46,924 nucleotides of DNA from Pinguiococcus pyrenoidosus. Its lineage: Eukaryota; Sar; Pinguiophyceae; Pinguiochrysidales; Pinguiochrysidaceae. Every line of letters starts with the position of its first letter. Within the stretch, counting starts at the first letter, position 1. The notes beneath the pieces were generated by a model, which saw only the letters and a list, made by a program, of their open reading frames with translations, was not told the origin of the DNA and did no database searches. Location: contig JAAMXY010001643.1 in the NCBI GenBank assembly GCA_019677205.1, positions 1-46,924 on the forward strand, read 5' to 3'. This document shows positions 6,929 to 17,660 of the stretch, piece by piece. A program made the translations under genes and the position numbers.

Positions 6929-9900
6929 CTACCAACGTCCAGATGATAGACCATTCTCAAAAAGGGTTCGGAGCTCTCTAGCTCCCTTCACAAGGGGTTC
7001 TTCATGTCTCTCGGGTTTCGATAAAACTGGTGTCCACAATCGGCGAACCTCTCTAATAAAACACTCTGCGTTGCGGTACCCTCGCGTCTCAAGTCGGATT
7101 CGCAGGGTGGTGAGGTCGCCTCGACCTGACTTTGCAGAAGGCTCGACGAACATGAAAGCGGCGTCTGCATTGCAAAGGTCATCCAAACAGGCAACCATGT
7201 CCATCTCTTCAGGAATTGCAGCACTCTCCTCGACCACTGCAGGAGGAGCATCGGACGTCGAAATGGACGAGGAAGTCTTCGCTCTCTTTGTGGGGCGCAC
7301 TTTGGACTTCTTAGGATTCGGCATTACCGAGCTAGTCTTCCTCTTCTTCGACGGCTTTGACGCCTTTGGCTGCGTGGACTCCTTTCCAGTTGACGATGAC
7401 CGCTCGCGTCTCTGAGGCGCTCTCTGGGGGTTTTCTCCTCTCTGGGCCGTGCTTTGCGTCTGCACGTCGTCCTTGCCGTCCGACCTCCTGTCCGCCATGG
7501 CGGCTTTCTTCTGCTTTTTCCGCTCCTTGTTCGACGGGCTTGCCTTCGCCTTCGCCTTCTTTCCGTCCTTCCCAGGGCTTTCCGGAGACGCCGGGACTTC
7601 CTCAAGATCTTCAAGACCCTCCTCGTCGTCCTCGACCCCGGCGGCGGGTTCTTCAATCACGACCGGCTCGGGCTCCTTCCGCTCAGGCTCGATGGCAGGC
7701 TCTCGTCCTGCAGCCAAACACGAGTTGCACTTGATCCAGTAGCTCTGCTTTCCGTGATATCCCGTTTGCTCCATGTACGCACTGCGCCCGAGACCCTCGA
7801 TCTCCTCCTCCGGAAGGCAATCTTCGCAAAGCGCAATGGGGCACGAGATGCAACGGAAGAGGAGACCGCCCGCAGCTGCTGTCGTGCGGAAGCAAGACGT
7901 GCACTTGTGCTGAGGACAAACCACGGGAGTCGAGGACTGCGCCGCTGCTCCGGCGTCCCGCAATCTCGTCGCCACAAACGCCTTGAGGCACTCGTCATGA
8001 TACACGCGGGGGCAGAATGTACACTTGACATCGCAGGGGCCTGACAACGGCGCGGGGTAAGTGGGAGCTTGGTCTCCGTCGTCCAGACTCTCGGTGCTGG
8101 CTTTCCGAGAACTCTCGAGGGGCTCGGACTCAAGCGGCATCGGCATTTCTCCGGGCGGACTAGGACCATGGCACCAGAGGCAGCGCGTCTGATGCTGCCA
8201 GACGCGCTGTTTCTTGTTCGCCTCACGAAGCGCCGCAGCTTTGGCTGCGCGGGCTTCCGATTCTTCCTCGTGCTGCACGAAGCTCGCAAGTACGGGCACG
8301 GCAGCCCCGTATCCCGTGCCACTGCCATCCACCATCTGAATACGCTGCTTCCTCTTTCTCTGGCCAAAGAGGATCAGACTGTCCTCGAGGGCGCCATCTG
8401 AGCGTTTCTCGTATTTGACGCCATTGAGGGAGCGCACGTCCCGCTCTTTCAAACGCTTCTTCAGCATCACGAGGCTGATGGTGTCCTTCTCGTCGTCTTC
8501 GGCTTCTTCCGCCTTTGTCCTACTAAGCACGGGCCCTTTCCCATCATCCCCCACTTCGCTGTTCGCCTTGCGACCGAGGAGCACGTCTAGATCGGCATCT
8601 GAGATATCATGGTTTTGGGTCTCGATCACTGCGTTTGCTCCAAACCGGATCATCGCTTTCAACTCGGACTTGTCCAAGCCTTGCGAGGCCAGCTCACCCA
8701 TGCTTGACGCGACGCTGTCTGCCTTTGATCTGTCAATGGCATCCTCTTCGGCGCCCCCCCCTTCTTGTACATTCTCCGCGACCATTGCGTTCAAGTACAG
8801 CTTCTTCTCGGCCCGGCTGACCATCCTCTCTTCCACACTGCCGCGGCAAACGAACCGAAAGATAGTCACGGGCTTGGTCTGCCCGATGCGATGAGCTCGC
8901 TCCATCGCCTGCAAGTCCACCTGAGGGTTCCAGTCCGAGTCGTACAGGATCACTGTGTCGGCGGTAGCGAGATTGATGCCGAGTCCACCAGCTCTCGTGC
9001 TGATAAGATACAAGAAGAGGGGGCTACCGGCTGCATTGAAGCGGCGGATGTCAAGGCGTCTCTGCACGCGATTCGTCTCGCCGTCCAACCTCGCAAACTC
9101 GTGCTTCCGAGCCATGCAATACTCCTCCAAGATATCAAGCATTGATGTGAACTGCGAAAAGATCAGGACGCGGTGACCGTCTTCGCGTAGCCGCGGGAGC
9201 ATTCGATCAAGCATCGAGAGCTTCCCCGACCCAGCTATCAAGTCCTCCACTGAGCTCCCTCCGAACCTATTACTGTCCTCGAGCATCAGATTGCAGTGAT
9301 TGCAGATCTTGCGCAGCTGCAGAAGCAAGTTCATCAGCTTCTTGTAGTCAACTCCGACGGAAGGCTCCTGCTTCTTCTCCTCGATCCCTTTGCCGTCCGA
9401 CGAGTCCTCGGTCAAAACCGACTCCAGAGTCGCGTCATCGATGTCGGTCAGAATGCGCTTGTACAGCTCATGTTGTTGGGCTGTCAGAGGCACCAAGACT
9501 TGCAGTTCCTTCTTCGGAGGTAGCGGAATCTCGACGTCATCTTTGAGCCGTCTCAGCATAATGACCGACAGCAGACGGCGGGCAGCGCGCAGACGCTGCG
9601 GATCACATACATTCCGAACTGCATCGAAACCATCAGTAAAGCGCTCGGTACTTGCGGCCGGGAATATGTCATGGAACAAGTAGTGAAGAAGTGCCCACAG
9701 CTCTCGGAGATTGTTTTGCAGAGGGGTCCCGGTCAGCAGCAGCTTGAACACGGAAGGGACCTTGCGAAGGCGCTCGCTGAGCTGGCTCTTCTCGTTCTTC
9801 AGCCGATGGCCTTCATCGACGGTCACCGTTCTCCACACAAAACGACGGCGGAAGAAATTCGAATCCGAGGTGAGCATCTCGAACGTCGTTATGACAACGT

Positions 9901-12900
9901 CGAAGTCATCAAGGTTGCTGAGCTCTTCGTCTTTGATGCGCTGTCGCTCGTCTCTCGGGCCGTGGAAACGGACACAGCGCATGCTGGGGCAGAATCGGTC
10001 CATCTCCTGGAGCCAATTGCTCAGGACGCTGAGTGGCACCACAATCAGGTGTGGACCACTGGCTTTGAGCGTGTCACGCAGGTACGCGATGAAGGCAATA
10101 GTCTGGAGTGTCTTCCCCAGGCCCATCTGGTCCCCCAGGATACTGTTCACGCCACATTTGTACATGTGGACGAGCCAGCTCAGACCAGTGATCTGGTGCT
10201 TGTGCAGCGTCGCCCTCACCGTAGTCGATGGCTCGACGGTCTCAAAATCAGAGCTTGATCTGGGCGCTGAGGCCGAAGCCTTCGTGCCGTCGATCGTCAG
10301 TCCATTCAAGCTATTCGACGAACTCCTGGTGCCTATCTTGATTGAGCGTGCCGCTGGGGCATCGCCATCCCCCGCAGAAGCAGAACCGGCCGCTTCCGCA
10401 ACCGAGCGCTCCTCCGCCTCCTTCACAACGCCAATCGTGCTGAGATAACCGGCTGTCGCTCCCGGGGTTATTACGCTGTCAGGTATTCGGGCGACTCCGG
10501 CATCTTCAACGCGGTCCTGACCAAGCAGAGGTGCTCCTCCCAACTCCATACCCGCGGAGGAGGACGTGCTCATCATTGGCTCCGGATCCAGGTCCACGAT
10601 CTGCTCACCCAGGCCACTCAGCAGCTCCCTCACTTTCTCTCGGCGGAGATCCTCCACATCTTCACGAGCGGTCTTGAGGATGTTGATAGCGTCAATCCAC
10701 GCCTTTTCGGTAAGATTGTAAAGGTTCTCGCACTTGTCCATCACGTTGGGAATCTCTTCCCTGCAGCTTTCAATGGCATCAGCAACGGCGATGTCGAATG
10801 AGTCGGCCAGATTCGGGTCATTCGCGGGCACTCTTCCTGACCAAGTGTCCGGCGCCGTCTGCTTCTCGAGTGCTTCTCGCAACGCTTCGAGTTTCTGAAT
10901 TTCGGCGGTCATGCGGCTCCTTTGGGGATCTGCGCCGCTGGACTTCGCACCCTTGTCGCGCTTCTTCGCTTCTCTCGGTTTAGCTTTGGGCGTCGCCGCC
11001 GGAAGCTGATCTCTACCATCACCTGGATAGCTTTGCGCGGAGGCAGAGCGGTCCTCCAGCGATGCGTGGGCGTGTCGGTGCCCCCCCGGTCCAGACATCC
11101 ACGCGGACGCAGCTGCATCCGGATTCGGGCCAGTCTCAGGAGCCGCCGACGGCTGCAAACTCCCCGGATGCACCATGTGCTGCTGCCGTGCTGTATGCTG
11201 ATCCGGTAGCGGGTTCATGCGTGAATGCGCTATCGTTGCGCCGGGGTAGTTCGGATGCATCAGGCCTGCTGGCTGCATCCGTCCCTGCGAGGCTACGCCC
11301 TGAGGCGTCGGATGTGGATGCTGCATCATCTGGCTCTGCATGTGCGGATGCGGATATCCTGGATGCGCGCTCATCTGCGGGTATCCGGAGGCTGGAAGCC
11401 TTCCAGGTTGGAAGCCATGTGCGTGGATGCCAACGGGAGCGATGCTGACGGATTGCATTGGCATCTGGTGGTAGCCCATCTGATTCATGTTCGTGCCATC
11501 GGGTACGCCAGCATGAAGCATGCCGTGCTGGTTCGATCCGTGCACCGCAATCCCGTGATGGGCCATCTGACCATGTGCTGGTAATCCTGCGTGCATCGGC
11601 ATTCCTGGGACTGCCGAAGGAGGCAATCCTACTGGCTGCAAAGAAGCGCACCCCATCTGGATCGGCATCATCCCGTGCTGGTGGGGATTTCCGTGCCTCA
11701 TGACTGGACTAGGTGCTTGCCTGGTCATTCCTTGCGGGGCGTATCCGCCACTCATGCGCGAGCCGGTAGGATCCACCGCCTGATGTTGCGCATCCCGCGG
11801 ATGCGAGCTCGGCACGTCGCGCTCAGCTTGCACTTCAGACTGCCTTTCCTCGGGCCTCTCCACAGAGGCTTTGGCCTCCAACTCTCGCCGCCTCTGCCTT
11901 TCCTTCTTGGCCACGTCTCTCATGTGCGCCGCCAGGTCCCTTCGCAGGGTCTCGAGACGCTTGCGGATGCTTCTCAGCTTCGAGGCTCTTATGTCTCTTT
12001 GCAGAGCGAATCGCATCAGAAGACTTCGCTGCAGCGTCAGGCGATTCCACGCTTGCTTGGCTTCACGTCTCGCTTGCTGCAGGTTCTCATCGCTGTCCAT
12101 CAGCATTCGGATAATCCCTGTGCTGGGGTGGTCGCTGTGGTGGACCAGCTTCTTCTCCAGAGCAGGATCCAGCTGCGGTACAGCATCGGCCTTCATCTCT
12201 CCTCCTGTTTCGTCCTCGGCCAGACTACCGCTTGAGCTTACTTGCGCAAGCGACGCACCATCGATGCTCTCCCCACGCTGGACAGAGTCTCTTGTTGACT
12301 CCAGCGAGGTTAGGGAGCCATACGATTGACTGACCGTGATCTCGTCTGCTTCTCTAGGCGGTGCTTCTGCAGCCGCCAGGCTCTGCGAAGCGAGATTCGG
12401 CTGAAGCGAGGCGCCGTTGTCGAGAAGGATTGCACGCAAAGGCGCTTGCTCCTTGAACAAAGAGACAGCTTCCAAGTTGCTTGAGCCGTCCTGTCGATTC
12501 TCATTCGGAGCGGTGCCTTGCGCTGCGCCGAGGACATCATCTTCTTCAGTGGCTGCGTTCGTCTTGTCCGCGGACGGTACCGCTTGCCGCTCTTCAGGCC
12601 CAATGTCATCCGGTCCGGCAAGCTGCTGAGAAGCGGGGCCTCCCTCTGATTCTCCTGCGTTCAATCTTATCAGCGCCCCTTGCAGCTCGTTGAGCATTTG
12701 GGGAGCGACAGGAAGATTCAGCTGCTGCGAGTTTCCACCCGTGTCTCCTGCTTCCCCGAGGTGTACGCGGTTCCCAGCACCGTCCTGATTCCCATCCACT
12801 TCTTGGTCTGCAGCGGCGTCGCCGGTGGACTGTGTCGTGCTGTTCCGACGGGAACGGGAGGTCTGCGCCCGGGTCACCACCTTCTTCGAACGCGCATAGT

Positions 12901-15277
12901 CTTTGACCTCGAACTGCCGTCGAGATGACACCCTATCCGCCGCAGTTGGATTCCGGTAATGAAGCAGCAACCACGTCCGCAATCTCTCTTGAACCTCGCG
13001 CGTCCTCTTCATGATCTCCGTGTTTATGTGCAGTGCGTCTCCCTTGTTGACCAAGCGATCAAGCCAGTCCAAGGCATCCACGGCGAAGGTCATCGAAAAG
13101 TTTGCATACGGATTCAGAGCCTCGTGGAACCAGTCTTTCCTCATCTGTCGCTTCAATGGCAAGCTTGCTTTCTCGAGCGGCCGCAACTCTTCCTCTCCCC
13201 AGACAGGGGACCGCGCCGAAGGCCTTGGCTTCGGCTCTGGTAATGCCTGCCCGTTGAGGGCACTCTGCAGAGAAGGTCGTCGCCGGACGATGTCTTGCAA
13301 CGTGCGCTTCCACATCTTATCATAGTGATCCTGAGGGCAGAACTGCCTAGTGATCAGCCGTATCTTCGATGTCCTGGGGTCTACATAGGACACGCGCACG
13401 AGATTGTCCGCCGGCGTGTTTCCCTTCTTGGCATACGAACAGGCATCCTTGATCAAGGCCGGCGCTGGAACAACGAAGGTTCCTGCTTGGAGCCGCATCG
13501 CCGTCACGCGGTCCACTTCGGAGGGCCTCGCACCTGCACGCTCCAAGAAGTACAAGTGCTTCCACGTGATGACGCCCGGAGCCACGGCCTTCGGCAGAGC
13601 ATTCTCCTCGAATCGGATCCCCGGCCACACTACCTTGTAAGACGCAAGCTCGTCCCCACCATCCTCCTCGGTAAGTTCGTACCCAAGTGCTTCCTTCTCT
13701 CCGAGCACCTCGCCGGAGTCAGGATCAAGTAGAAGCGGAGGATTGGATTCCTCATGCAGGGTTGGGTGCGCATCTGGCGGACTCGCAACGTGCCCGATGA
13801 TCGTGTACGGACAGATTCCGTACTCGTCTACGTACGCGTCCGGAGGGAGTAGGCCCGCCCGAATCAGCAGCTTCACCACTTCGATTGGCGTCGTCGTGGC
13901 CGTGAAAAAGGCGTTCCCCTGCTGCCGGTGACCCTTCGGTCCGGCCGCCCTGCCAGTCCCCGGGGACCTGGTGGATGTCTTCCATGCTTCCATCATCATG
14001 CGCCGCTCCTTCTGAAGAAAGTAGTTGTCGTCCTCCGGCAGGAATGGCGTCAGGATCGCGATGCGCTCTTCCATGAAATCATCCCGCTTCATCTTTTTTT
14101 CTTCCATTTCCTGCCGCAATGCCCGATTGTGCGAGTTCCACGCCTGATTCAGGCTCTCATTCATCTTCACGGCTTTCTGCCTCTCCGCCTGGCGAAGCGA
14201 GAGATACGCAGCATGCTCCCGCGCCCGACCGTCACGGTAGTCTCGGCCTCTCCTTCTCGGTGTCATGACCTTCAGCCCCTGGCCCTTAAGTCTGCCGTCG
14301 CCGCCCTTGCCCTTCTCGAAGGACAACGCCGCTGCTTCCGCTCGTTTGATGCGATCTATGTAGTCCGGGTGGAAGCGGTACTGCGACCCGTTCTTCTCAA
14401 GAACACTTTGTGCGATCAGCCGCTGCATCGCCTGCACGTCGGTTGAGGAGACGCTGAGCTAGGGCGCCACCAGATAGCAAAGCTGCGTTCCGTACCTTCA
14501 GAGTCAACGAGTTGAAAGAGGCCCGCTGCTTCTGCTTCACCTCTGGGCAAACGGACATCAGGCTTTTCCGTATTGCCGGCAGGGTGAAGCCATCCCGAGC
14601 AGCGCGTCCTCCGTGGGTGGCGCCCAGGTTGCTGATCGCGTCCATGCACATATCGGCATACGTTCTGTTGCCCTTGGCTTTCCCTTTCTTCTGCTGATCC
14701 AATGCAGACTCCGCGGCCTGGCCTGGGGCTTGCGCAGTACTCGGCACGCTCGCTCCAGGCCCTGGCACGATCAGCTTGCGCCCCGGGGCCGGCTCAGGCC
14801 CGACGTAGACGTGGTAGTCGTCCCCAAGCGTCTCCACGAAGAAAAGGCCCGGATCGGACTCGTACTCGACGGTGAAGGTGTCCGTCTCGGCGTGATACCT
14901 GTCGTGCGAGCGTTCGGAAGGCGTTTAGGTGCGGGACGGCATCGGCGTGGGCGCATCGAAACCGGAAGCCGCAGGACGCGAGCCGATGTTCTGCCAGAGG
15001 CTGCGGCTTACAGCGATCTTCTTCGGTCTTTTGCAAGCACACGCAGAAAAGGCCGGCCTTTCGCGGCGCCACGCACGCTAATCCATTCTTGAGAGCTCCA
15101 CAGAGTCGCTGGCAATGGCGTTGCGCGGAAAGCGTCGGCGTACCTGCGGACGACGGCCTCAAAATACTGCGCTTCGCCATGATAGTACACAGCTACGCGC
15201 CGGCCTTCGAGAGCCGCGCCCATCGGCCCGGTATCGGGCGGCGCCCAGTGCTCCGAGGGGCCTAGAGGCGCCGCCAT
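6929..15277 (-). CDS. Large ISWI-like chromatin remodeler with Tudor-like, H15 winged-helix, SNF2 ATPase and PHD-type zinc domains
   Basis: Three exons on the minus strand, 15277-15144, 14898-14496 and 14431-6929 (introns 245 and 64 nt), give about 2679 residues. Exon 1 and the start of exon 2 join into a Tudor-like strand pattern (RVAVYYHGEAQYFEAVV, then DTFTVEYESD). Exons 2 and 3 join into a linker-histone H15-type winged helix (TYADMCMDAISNLGATHGG to MQRLIAQSVLEKNGSQYRFH, about residues 124-200). A long linker follows, with a Met/His/Pro/Gln-rich tract (about 1090-1300). The SNF2 ATPase has GDQMGLGKT near 10130, DEGHRLKN near 9810 and the helicase C block ending AHRIGQTKPVTIFR near 8880. 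After it, LKAMIRFGANAV and DISDADLDVLL match the ISWI-specific AutoN/NegC neighbourhood. Around 8190-7700 lie Cys/His zinc-binding clusters of PHD type (CTFCPRVYHDECL, CISCPIALCEDCLP). The tail is Lys-rich, then ends with a short folded segment. It should slide or space nucleosomes in the nucleus. Confidence 0.93.
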
Positions 15278-16022: not shown

Positions 16023-16464
16023 ATGCAGGGCACCAGCGATCTGCCAGATGACGCGTCCCGGTTCCAGCTGGAGCTCGAGTTCGTTCAGCTGCTCGGCAGC
16101 TCCGAGTATCTTCACCGTACGTCGTATCTTGACCACGGATCTGCGCCGCGCCCCCCGCCCTCGCTGACCTGCGCGCTGCTTCGCTGCCGCAGATATTGCG
16201 CAGGCTGGGTACCTCGAGGATCCCGCCTTCATGGCGTTCTTGAAGTATCTGCAGTACTGGAAGCAGCCGGAGTACGTGCGCTATATCCAGTATCCCCACA
16301 GCCTGGGGTTCCTCGACATCCTCTGCGACGACGAGAATGACACCTTCCGGTCAAGTCTCAAAGACGCGGCCTTCCGGGACTTCATCCACAGTCAGCATTT
16401 CCTACACTGGCAGCACTACGCCGGCCAGCGAACGAATCCCATCGCAGACGAACATGAGGCATAG
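16023..16464 (+). CDS. MED31: Mediator complex subunit 31 (SOH1)
   Basis: Two exons, 16023-16116 and 16193-16464, with a 76-nt intron (GTACGT donor, CCGCAG acceptor), code for 121 residues. Exon 1 ends RFQLELEFVQLLGSSEYLH; exon 2 continues IAQAGYLEDPAFMAFLKYL, then QYWKQPEYVRYIQYPHSLGFL and FIHSQHFLHWQHYAGQR. This is the complete MED31 signature, including the LxWQHY end. MED31 sits in the middle module of Mediator and links transcription factors to RNA polymerase II. The ATG at 16023 is the first in frame; upstream in-frame codons lack an ATG. The length equals that of a minimal MED31. It is divergent from the remodeler gene, so two RNA polymerase II cofactors share one upstream region. Confidence 0.97.
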
Positions 16465-16886
16465 CCTTTCAGAAGGCCGAACAAAGGCGACGCAACAAGC
16501 ATTCCTTTCGGCCACTCATGCTTTTCTTCTCTTCTCAACTATTGGGCTCCCGAGAGAGAATGGTGGTGCTGCACAGGCAGCGCCACAACACCCGCCTTTA
16601 CGCAAAGACCTTCCCAAGGATTGAACCCCAAAAGCAGACCAGGAATGCTCCCCTTGTGACATTGACCAAGTCCACAGCATCCACGCGCACGCGCACGCGC
16701 ACGCGCACGCGCACGCGCAACCCTCGTTCATATGATGGACGCAGCAGAAGGGCCCTGCGCGGCCTTCCCCGAGCTGGTGCTGGCTCCGTGGCGAGCCCAC
16801 CCGATGCATCGGCTCTGTCCGCTTCTGGACAGAGCACGAGGCGCACTTGTCGCCAGGCAGAGGAGCGGGCATTGCGAGGTGTTGGA
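16465..16886. other. Spacer between MED31 and the methyltransferase gene
   Basis: The 422-nt spacer holds the six-copy ACGCGC repeat described separately. An upstream extension of the methyltransferase frame crosses it, but its translation is a low-complexity Thr-Arg run at the repeat, so I place the protein start downstream of it. Confidence 0.45.
16683..16718. repeat. Hexanucleotide microsatellite (ACGCGC)6
   Basis: Six exact tandem copies of ACGCGC lie about 170 nt upstream of the methyltransferase start. The alternating purine-pyrimidine CG/CA content is of the kind that can adopt Z-DNA. It may lie in the 5' untranslated region. Confidence 0.95.
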
Positions 16887-17660
16887 ATGTCTCAGAAGCT
16901 TGACGACGCTGATGCGGGCCTGGTGGCAGCAGCAGACACTGCAGAAGTTTGGGAAGATGATGGAGAGGACGATTGGATGCCCTTCCCGCCTGGAGACGGG
17001 GACGAGCGATCGCTAGGCCCCGTTGTGTTGACGCCGCCTCATATCGTTGACAAGCTGATCGGCAAGCTGGACTTGGACGGGACCTTCCGGGTGTATGACC
17101 TCGGGTCTGGGGACGGGGAACTTCTGCTAAAGGTCGCCGAGCAGACTGGGGCGCGTTGCGTCGGCTTCGAAATCAAGGAAGACCTCGTGCAGGCGGCGAA
17201 TAGAATGGCAGTGGAGCGGAAGGTAGGACAGGAATGGCTTCTTTTCGCAGTTGAGTGTCCTTGAGCTCAGTCAACGTGACGGGGCATGCCTTTTCCGTAG
17301 GTCAGTGACAAGGTGGTCTTTCGAGCGGAGGATCTGCTTGACGCGGAGCTGGTGTTGGGGGCGAAGACGGTCCTGATCATCTTCTTGACGCCGTGGGCGA
17401 TGAACCTTCTGGAGGACAAGCTAGCAGAGGCGCTCCAGGCGGGTTGCCGCGTGATTTCTTGTTGGTGGCCAGTCGACGGACTCATAAAGCGCGTCGGCTG
17501 TGATCGAGAAGAGCTGTGGGGAAACACTTATCTGTACTCGATGCCGAAGATGGAAGATCGAGATCAAGACCAAGATCAAGATGGAGATGCAGGTGTAGAT
17601 GAAGACGGAGATCGAGATAAGGCGGGGGAGAAGACCGGTGCAAAGGACGCCATTGGATGA
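16887..17660 (+). CDS. SAM-dependent protein lysine methyltransferase, FAM173/ATPSCKMT-like
   Basis: Two exons, 16887-17222 and 17301-17660, with a 78-nt intron (GTAGGA donor, CCGTAG acceptor), give 231 residues. The SAM-binding motif I is VYDLGSGDGELLL (about residues 69-81), followed by GARCVGFEIKEDLVQAANR. After the intron come VVFRAEDLLDAEL and a hydrophobic strand (VLIIFLTPWAMNLLEDKL) in place of the usual catalytic motif, then GCRVISCWWPV. This order fits the FAM173 family, whose animal members trimethylate a lysine on the c subunit of ATP synthase or on ANT in mitochondria. A mitochondrial presequence is not evident; the N-terminus is acidic instead. The C-terminus is an Asp/Gln/Lys repeat tract (DQDQDQDGD type, about 17553-17620) that looks like slippage-born sequence. 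The substrate is inferred from family only. Confidence 0.78.

Follow-up and report, generated by a model that had tools for sequence, protein, structure and literature searches.

The window analysed here, the 46,924-nucleotide (nt) contig JAAMXY010001643.1 of the alga Pinguiococcus pyrenoidosus, encodes on its minus strand, between positions 15277 and 6929, a predicted SNF2 remodeler in which a motor standing beside ISWI is combined with a Tudor-like domain, a winged helix of the linker-histone type (H15) and a zinc region of the NSD type. The finding is an unusual domain set on an SNF2 family beside ISWI and not a new kind of machine. An SNF2 family with the H15 and Tudor-like set is not described in the papers found by our search, and no published description of an H15-SNF2 fusion was recovered in it, although a survey of chromatin evolution (Grau-Bove 2022) may cover such proteins.

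A search with the joined protein yielded two metagenome proteins bearing both H15 and SNF2 (P0001 and P0002), and a profile search with three sequences gave 309 matches, the best 120 of which were examined. Within these 120, 14 relatives (P0001, P0002 and 12 more) scored 1301-2725 bits, the next match being at 587 bits. All 14 are metagenome or uncultured proteins (sources jgi, ena, lgn, merc and ncbi), and JGI names five of them SMARCA member 5. H15 is present in seven (P0001, P0002, P0121, P0122, P0123, P0124 and P0128) and the Tudor-like domain in four (P0001, P0002, P0121 and P0122), while the remaining seven start farther downstream. The domain order of the window protein is kept in four relatives, each of them one predicted protein.

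The protein follows from joining three minus-strand exons (15277-15144, 14898-14496 and 14431-6929) in frame, which gives 2679 codons without an internal stop, from an ATG at 15277 to a stop codon at 6931-6929. Exon 1 (15144-15277) holds the start codon and the first half of the Tudor-like fold, exon 2 (14496-14898) the remainder of that fold together with helices 1 and 2 and the start of helix 3 of H15, and exon 3 (6929-14431) the rest of H15 through the stop codon. Both introns are of the GT..AG type and measure 245 nt (14899-15143) and 64 nt (14432-14495); the second interrupts helix 3 of H15 (SLTLK/AMQR), where P0123 reads an unbroken SLTLKALTK in the alignment.

To this model we applied an N-terminal test profile made from the seven relatives with H15, the window protein being excluded. 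Residues 1-350 of the joined protein scored 112.5 bits, more than the 85.5 bits of the separate exons summed (44.7 for the start of exon 3, 28.7 for exon 2 and 12.1 for exon 1). None of 1000 shuffles reached E <= 10 against the profile under the default filters of HMMER, and just three of the 697 window frames of at least 40 codons did so, all of them exon-bearing. Junction 15144/14898 was the top of 34 open-frame GT-AG pairs (112.6 versus 95.8 bits, a lead of 16.8). For junction 14496/14431, with 23 pairs, the whole N-terminal profile gave 112.6 bits and one rival pair 113.5, 0.9 bit higher, and a profile of H15 only put the junction first (42.6 versus 34.2). The unspliced frame 14400-14924 gave no Pfam match to Linker_histone or PTM_DIR17_Tudor. 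We take the exon joins as real because the relatives are colinear and because of the junction tests. In this way the two upstream exons that an earlier note on this DNA had joined to the large frame are upheld, and the gene model is confirmed at the sequence level as correct, with coordinates exact to the base.

The same note had proposed that the joined N-terminus completes an H15 and a Tudor-like domain, and at the level of the family this is borne out. The Tudor-like domain (residues 25-77, 14802-15205, minus strand, as are all features of the gene) is split by intron 1 and was recognized by Pfam, by a PDB profile match and by alignment; H15 (residues 124-203, 14360-14663) is split by intron 2. 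With the first 247 residues as query, Pfam returned Linker_histone at 0.0022 and PTM_DIR17_Tudor at 0.0061, both below the curated cut-offs. When the family was considered, PF00538 matched all eight H15 segments (window plus seven relatives; best 3.4e-15) and PF21743 all five Tudor segments (window plus four relatives; best 1.1e-5) at E <= 1, the window copies themselves staying under the cut-offs (3e-4 for H15, whose 21.4 bits fall short of the cut-off of 22.4, and 5.4e-4 for Tudor). The Tudor profile matches PDB entry 7de9 at 2e-6. In the alignment, the aromatic-cage positions of the window Tudor are Y32, F39 and Y57, and across the five Tudor rows the cage positions of RDM15 read W/W/W/W/Y, then F or Y, then Y. 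The window H15 has a net charge of +8 and an adjoining basic flank, and a 6-7-residue insertion separates its helices 1 and 2. Taken over the joined protein, the profile searches matched SNF2-rel_dom and PHDvar_NSD and, weakly, Linker_histone and PTM_DIR17_Tudor.

The motor comprises SNF2 ATPase lobe 1 (residues 1591-1894, 9287-10198), containing GDQMGLGKT and VDEGHRLKN, and the Helicase_C lobe 2 assigned by Pfam (residues 1916-2029, 8882-9223), with whole-protein E-values of 3.6e-73 for SNF2-rel_dom and 5.9e-24 for Helicase_C. By reading, the helicase motifs are intact, and ATP-driven translocation is therefore likely, judging from the family. The best solved structure for the ATPase is a SMARCA chain (2e-134), taken as SMARCA5/SNF2H. 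Our main tree comprised 46 ATPases, after seven rows with long branches or doubtful models had been dropped from 53. In this tree the 15 family members were monophyletic (100/100, stem 0.83), ISWI formed a clade of its own (92/83), and family and ISWI together were set apart from the rest at 99/96, with the ATPase outside the CHD and SWI/SNF clades. The 53-row tree again placed the family (100/100) beside ISWI (82/84), and in both trees the window protein branched first within the family, followed by the P0128 group. As far as the ATPase trees and domain searches can tell, the family is the sister group of ISWI and not a member of it, with its own stem and no HAND-SANT-SLIDE; what had been called an ISWI-type ATPase is thus of ISWI kinship and not of ISWI membership. 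Similarity to 29 viral loci was of the generic SNF2 kind only (22-37 % identity).

Pfam searches of the joined protein, of P0001 and of P0002 returned nothing for HAND, SANT or SLIDE at E <= 1, in agreement with the earlier note, which had seen no such C-terminal module. The SLIDE search was positive in its control, two contigs of the same genome (C146 and C595). The family either lost HAND-SANT-SLIDE or never gained it. Pfam likewise found no chromodomain, HSA or SET match in the 2679-residue protein. The post-core segment (residues 2100-2225, 8294-8671) contains IRFGANAV, which is shared with ISWI, and then the family motif RKRKQRIQMVDGSGTGYG. In hhalign, the RFGA segment reached 97.5 % (2e-11) against ISWI, and with other bounds 95.2 % against ISWI, 37.1 % against CHD1, 4.8 % against CHD8, 0.1 % against CHD4 and 0.0 % against SWI/SNF. 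The late part alone (the KRxRK stretch) gave 0.1 % against ISWI, with CHD1, CHD4, CHD8 and SWI/SNF as controls; an extension of the ISWI homology into the start of HAND, at which one alignment had hinted, was not borne out by this value, and the RFGA part alone is counted as common to both. A plain test for the AutoN-type pattern R[HK]R gave one hit in the window protein, at residue 1002, and one in each of four of the 14 relatives (P0001, P0121, P0123 and P0129), with no common aligned position seen. DEGH is a signature of the family, occupying motif II in all 15 of its rows, where all six ISWI rows have DEAH, so that the contrast drawn earlier with the usual ISWI motif holds; as an oddity, DEGH was dismissed, since it is common in SWI/SNF and several CHD-like rows.

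The genome of the same organism (23.7 Mb, 768 contigs) was searched for related genes. C146 and C595 each have a SLIDE match above the cut-off, a third place, C135, has one below it, and HAND was found at C146; the ATPases of C146 and C595 fall in the ISWI clade of the 53-row tree. Searched with the family ATPase profile, the window gene scored 970 bits and these two ISWIs, the next matches, 540 and 531. Given two SLIDE-bearing ISWIs in the genome, the window protein is to be seen as an additional remodeler, and a replacement of ISWI was rejected. The SLIDE-bearing ISWI of C595 (L005, genome G000) groups at 100/100 with P0004 and P0005, the Pfam lists of which include an HMG box. The family search for H15, which is blind to split exons, found one further place in the genome, C159. 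With chicken H5 as query no match was obtained in the genome, in a search that had no positive control and to which split exons are invisible, and absence of H1 is not claimed. At C159 (L074 1205-9901 into L075, G000) lies an open frame of 4835 codons that combines H15 (1.3e-7) with a WSD/D-TOX E motif (1.3e-14), a motif known from ISWI partner proteins. Around 4 kb from this giant frame there is a match of the light-harvesting type; the genome contains 29 matches to light-harvesting proteins, some of which are pieces of one gene. Its cytosolic HSP90 shows 88 and 87 % identity to two sequences, one of them from MMETSP, and no more than 78 % to the remaining 118 of the rows listed. Two plant rows (67-68 %) rank first by bits on account of their length of about 1180 residues, and all other named rows are from stramenopiles, so that this one protein suggests an ochrophyte alga as the host.

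C-terminal of the motor, the PHD-type zinc fingers reported earlier were recovered as an NSD-type PHD and C5HCH region (residues 2263-2417, 7718-8182). PHDvar_NSD scored 27.4 bits against a cut-off of 27 on the excised segment and 23.5 bits (5.9e-5), below the cut-off, on the whole protein, and 14 Cys and three His columns are invariant across the six aligned rows. The C-terminus itself (residues 2580-2679, 6932-7231), overlooked in the earlier note, is bromodomain-like but degenerate and not a complete domain, to judge by profile comparison. Among the bromodomain PDB matches listed, most cover the second half only, that to GCN5 extending over profile positions 24-100. In an ungapped reading against BRD4, the BC-loop Asn is present in one of six rows (P0001) and lost in the window protein.

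Some 1260 residues separate the motor from a family motif around PFLPExNYF (residues 295-325, 13994-14086), which was delimited in the alignment of the relatives. In this stretch lies an insert module (13208-13594), also missed before, that the window protein has in common with P0128. BLASTP aligned residues 490-587 (13501-13208) at 2.7e-7 and residues 459-482, which perhaps belong to it, at just 0.02; among the 14 relatives no match at E <= 1 was found except P0128. Considering that the window protein is basal in the family and the P0128 group comes next, the module may be ancestral. An AlphaFold2 model of the insert, made with two sequences, had a mean predicted local distance difference test score of 38.9, too low to interpret. 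P0128 (2045 amino acids, metagenome) starts just upstream of H15, lacks a Tudor, and contains an HMG box as well. The Met/His/Pro/Gln-rich tract described before was located at residues 1075-1279 (11132-11746), with 10 % M, 11 % H, 15 % P and 11 % Q.

On the whole we consider it probable that the protein is a remodeler of an ISWI sister family in which Tudor and PHD-C5HCH choose the nucleosome, H15 senses linker or dyad DNA and the motor slides or spaces. The Tudor-like domain, as a methyl-lysine reader, and PHD-C5HCH would bind histone tails and so pick the nucleosome. H15 and its basic flank would contact linker or dyad DNA, possibly in competition with histone H1, and would do the linker-sensing job of HAND-SANT-SLIDE, after which the motor would slide or space the nucleosome. 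HAND-SANT-SLIDE contacts linker DNA in ISWI, and H15 is the only DNA-binding module found in the window protein that is comparable to it. According to PMC5305211, both linker DNA and the H4 tail regulate ISWI. That the window protein slides nucleosomes at the cost of ATP, where H15 binds, which marks are read and what the biological role is, we infer; the same holds for nucleosome positioning through linker DNA by H15.

A more far-reaching proposal, which we put forward tentatively, is that the family constitutes a distinct class, in which a captured linker-histone domain replaces HAND-SANT-SLIDE as a gauge of linker or dyad DNA, placing the motor at the H1 site for spacing by H1 mimicry. The setting of this proposal is a genome in which the one other H15 place found is the giant chromatin-type protein with H15 and WSD. 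The main rival, somewhat less probable again, holds that H15, in the manner of the KAT6A/KAT6B winged helix, targets DNA and so recruits the remodeler to promoters or CpG-rich DNA; the KAT6-type winged helix, for example, binds unmethylated CpG. Tudor and PHD would suit promoter targeting, the H15 profile also matches the KAT6B winged helix at 6.9e-5, and a fold search with the H15 model of a relative ranked the MORF winged helix sixth, but the best H1/H5 chains score higher both by sequence and by fold. It is rather unlikely that Tudor and H15 are degenerate docking modules for proteins and that the large insert, together with partner proteins, confers specificity. The sub-threshold scores of both window modules, the insertion within H15 and the length of the insert fit such a role, whereas the basic charge and the aromatic cage are conserved across the relatives. 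That the protein is a plain ISWI orthologue whose N-terminus has been decorated, and that it does the job of ISWI in this alga, is very improbable. The nearest solved ATPases (the SMARCA chain and ISWI) and the JGI names speak for it, and the missing HAND, SANT and SLIDE, the separate clade (100/100) with its stem of 0.83 and the SLIDE-bearing ISWIs of the genome itself against it; orthology is refuted by the tree, unless both SLIDE genes prove to be contamination. Finally, it is hardly credible that exons 1 and 2 are part of a different gene, with the remodeler beginning in exon 3. Exon 3 does lie inside a 2509-codon open frame of its own, but it would then start in the middle of helix 3 of H15, and the colinear relatives and both junction tests contradict this.

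As for the surroundings of the gene, ten other window frames were scanned, three of which had no match and seven of which match ordinary families: AP medium chain, methyltransferase, Cas1p-type acyltransferase, calpain, DUF2921-RING, importin beta and ABC transporter. The frame with methyltransferase matches (16458-17264, plus strand; DOT1 at 1.7e-4, below the cut-off) is divergent from the remodeler gene.

The measurement of linker DNA by remodelers is a central issue, and HAND-SANT-SLIDE is the solution of ISWI. If the proposed working is true, the family has kept an ISWI-sister motor and used a linker-histone fold instead, a natural domain swap that bears on the question whether spacing can be achieved with just any module that binds linker DNA. 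The family also enlarges the set of remodelers in algae and uncultured eukaryotes, which are sparsely annotated, as the JGI names illustrate.

Each part of the protein resembles a known system and departs from it. The Tudor-like domain shares profile and aromatic-cage positions with plant RDM15 and PTM/DIR17, but the Asp pair for monomethyl-lysine is lost in the window protein and the host protein differs. H15 has the winged-helix fold and sequence profile of the globular domain of the linker histones H1/H5, but sits in a large enzyme, has the insertion and scores slightly below the Pfam cut-off. With the PHD5-C5HCH of the NSD family the zinc region shares the Cys/His pattern and the PHDvar_NSD profile, whereas here it is joined to a remodeler and no SET domain was matched. 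CHD3/4 (Mi-2) are likewise remodelers carrying PHD fingers; the window protein differs in having no chromodomain, an ATPase of a different clade and its PHD C-terminal of the motor. Nearest by its ATPase is ISWI (SMARCA5/SNF2H, yeast Isw1), with which the RFGA segment after the core is held in common. Compared with ISWI, the window protein is without HAND-SANT-SLIDE and without an RHR-type AutoN at a conserved place, has DEGH for DEAH, and adds Tudor, H15, PHD-C5HCH and bromodomain-like modules.

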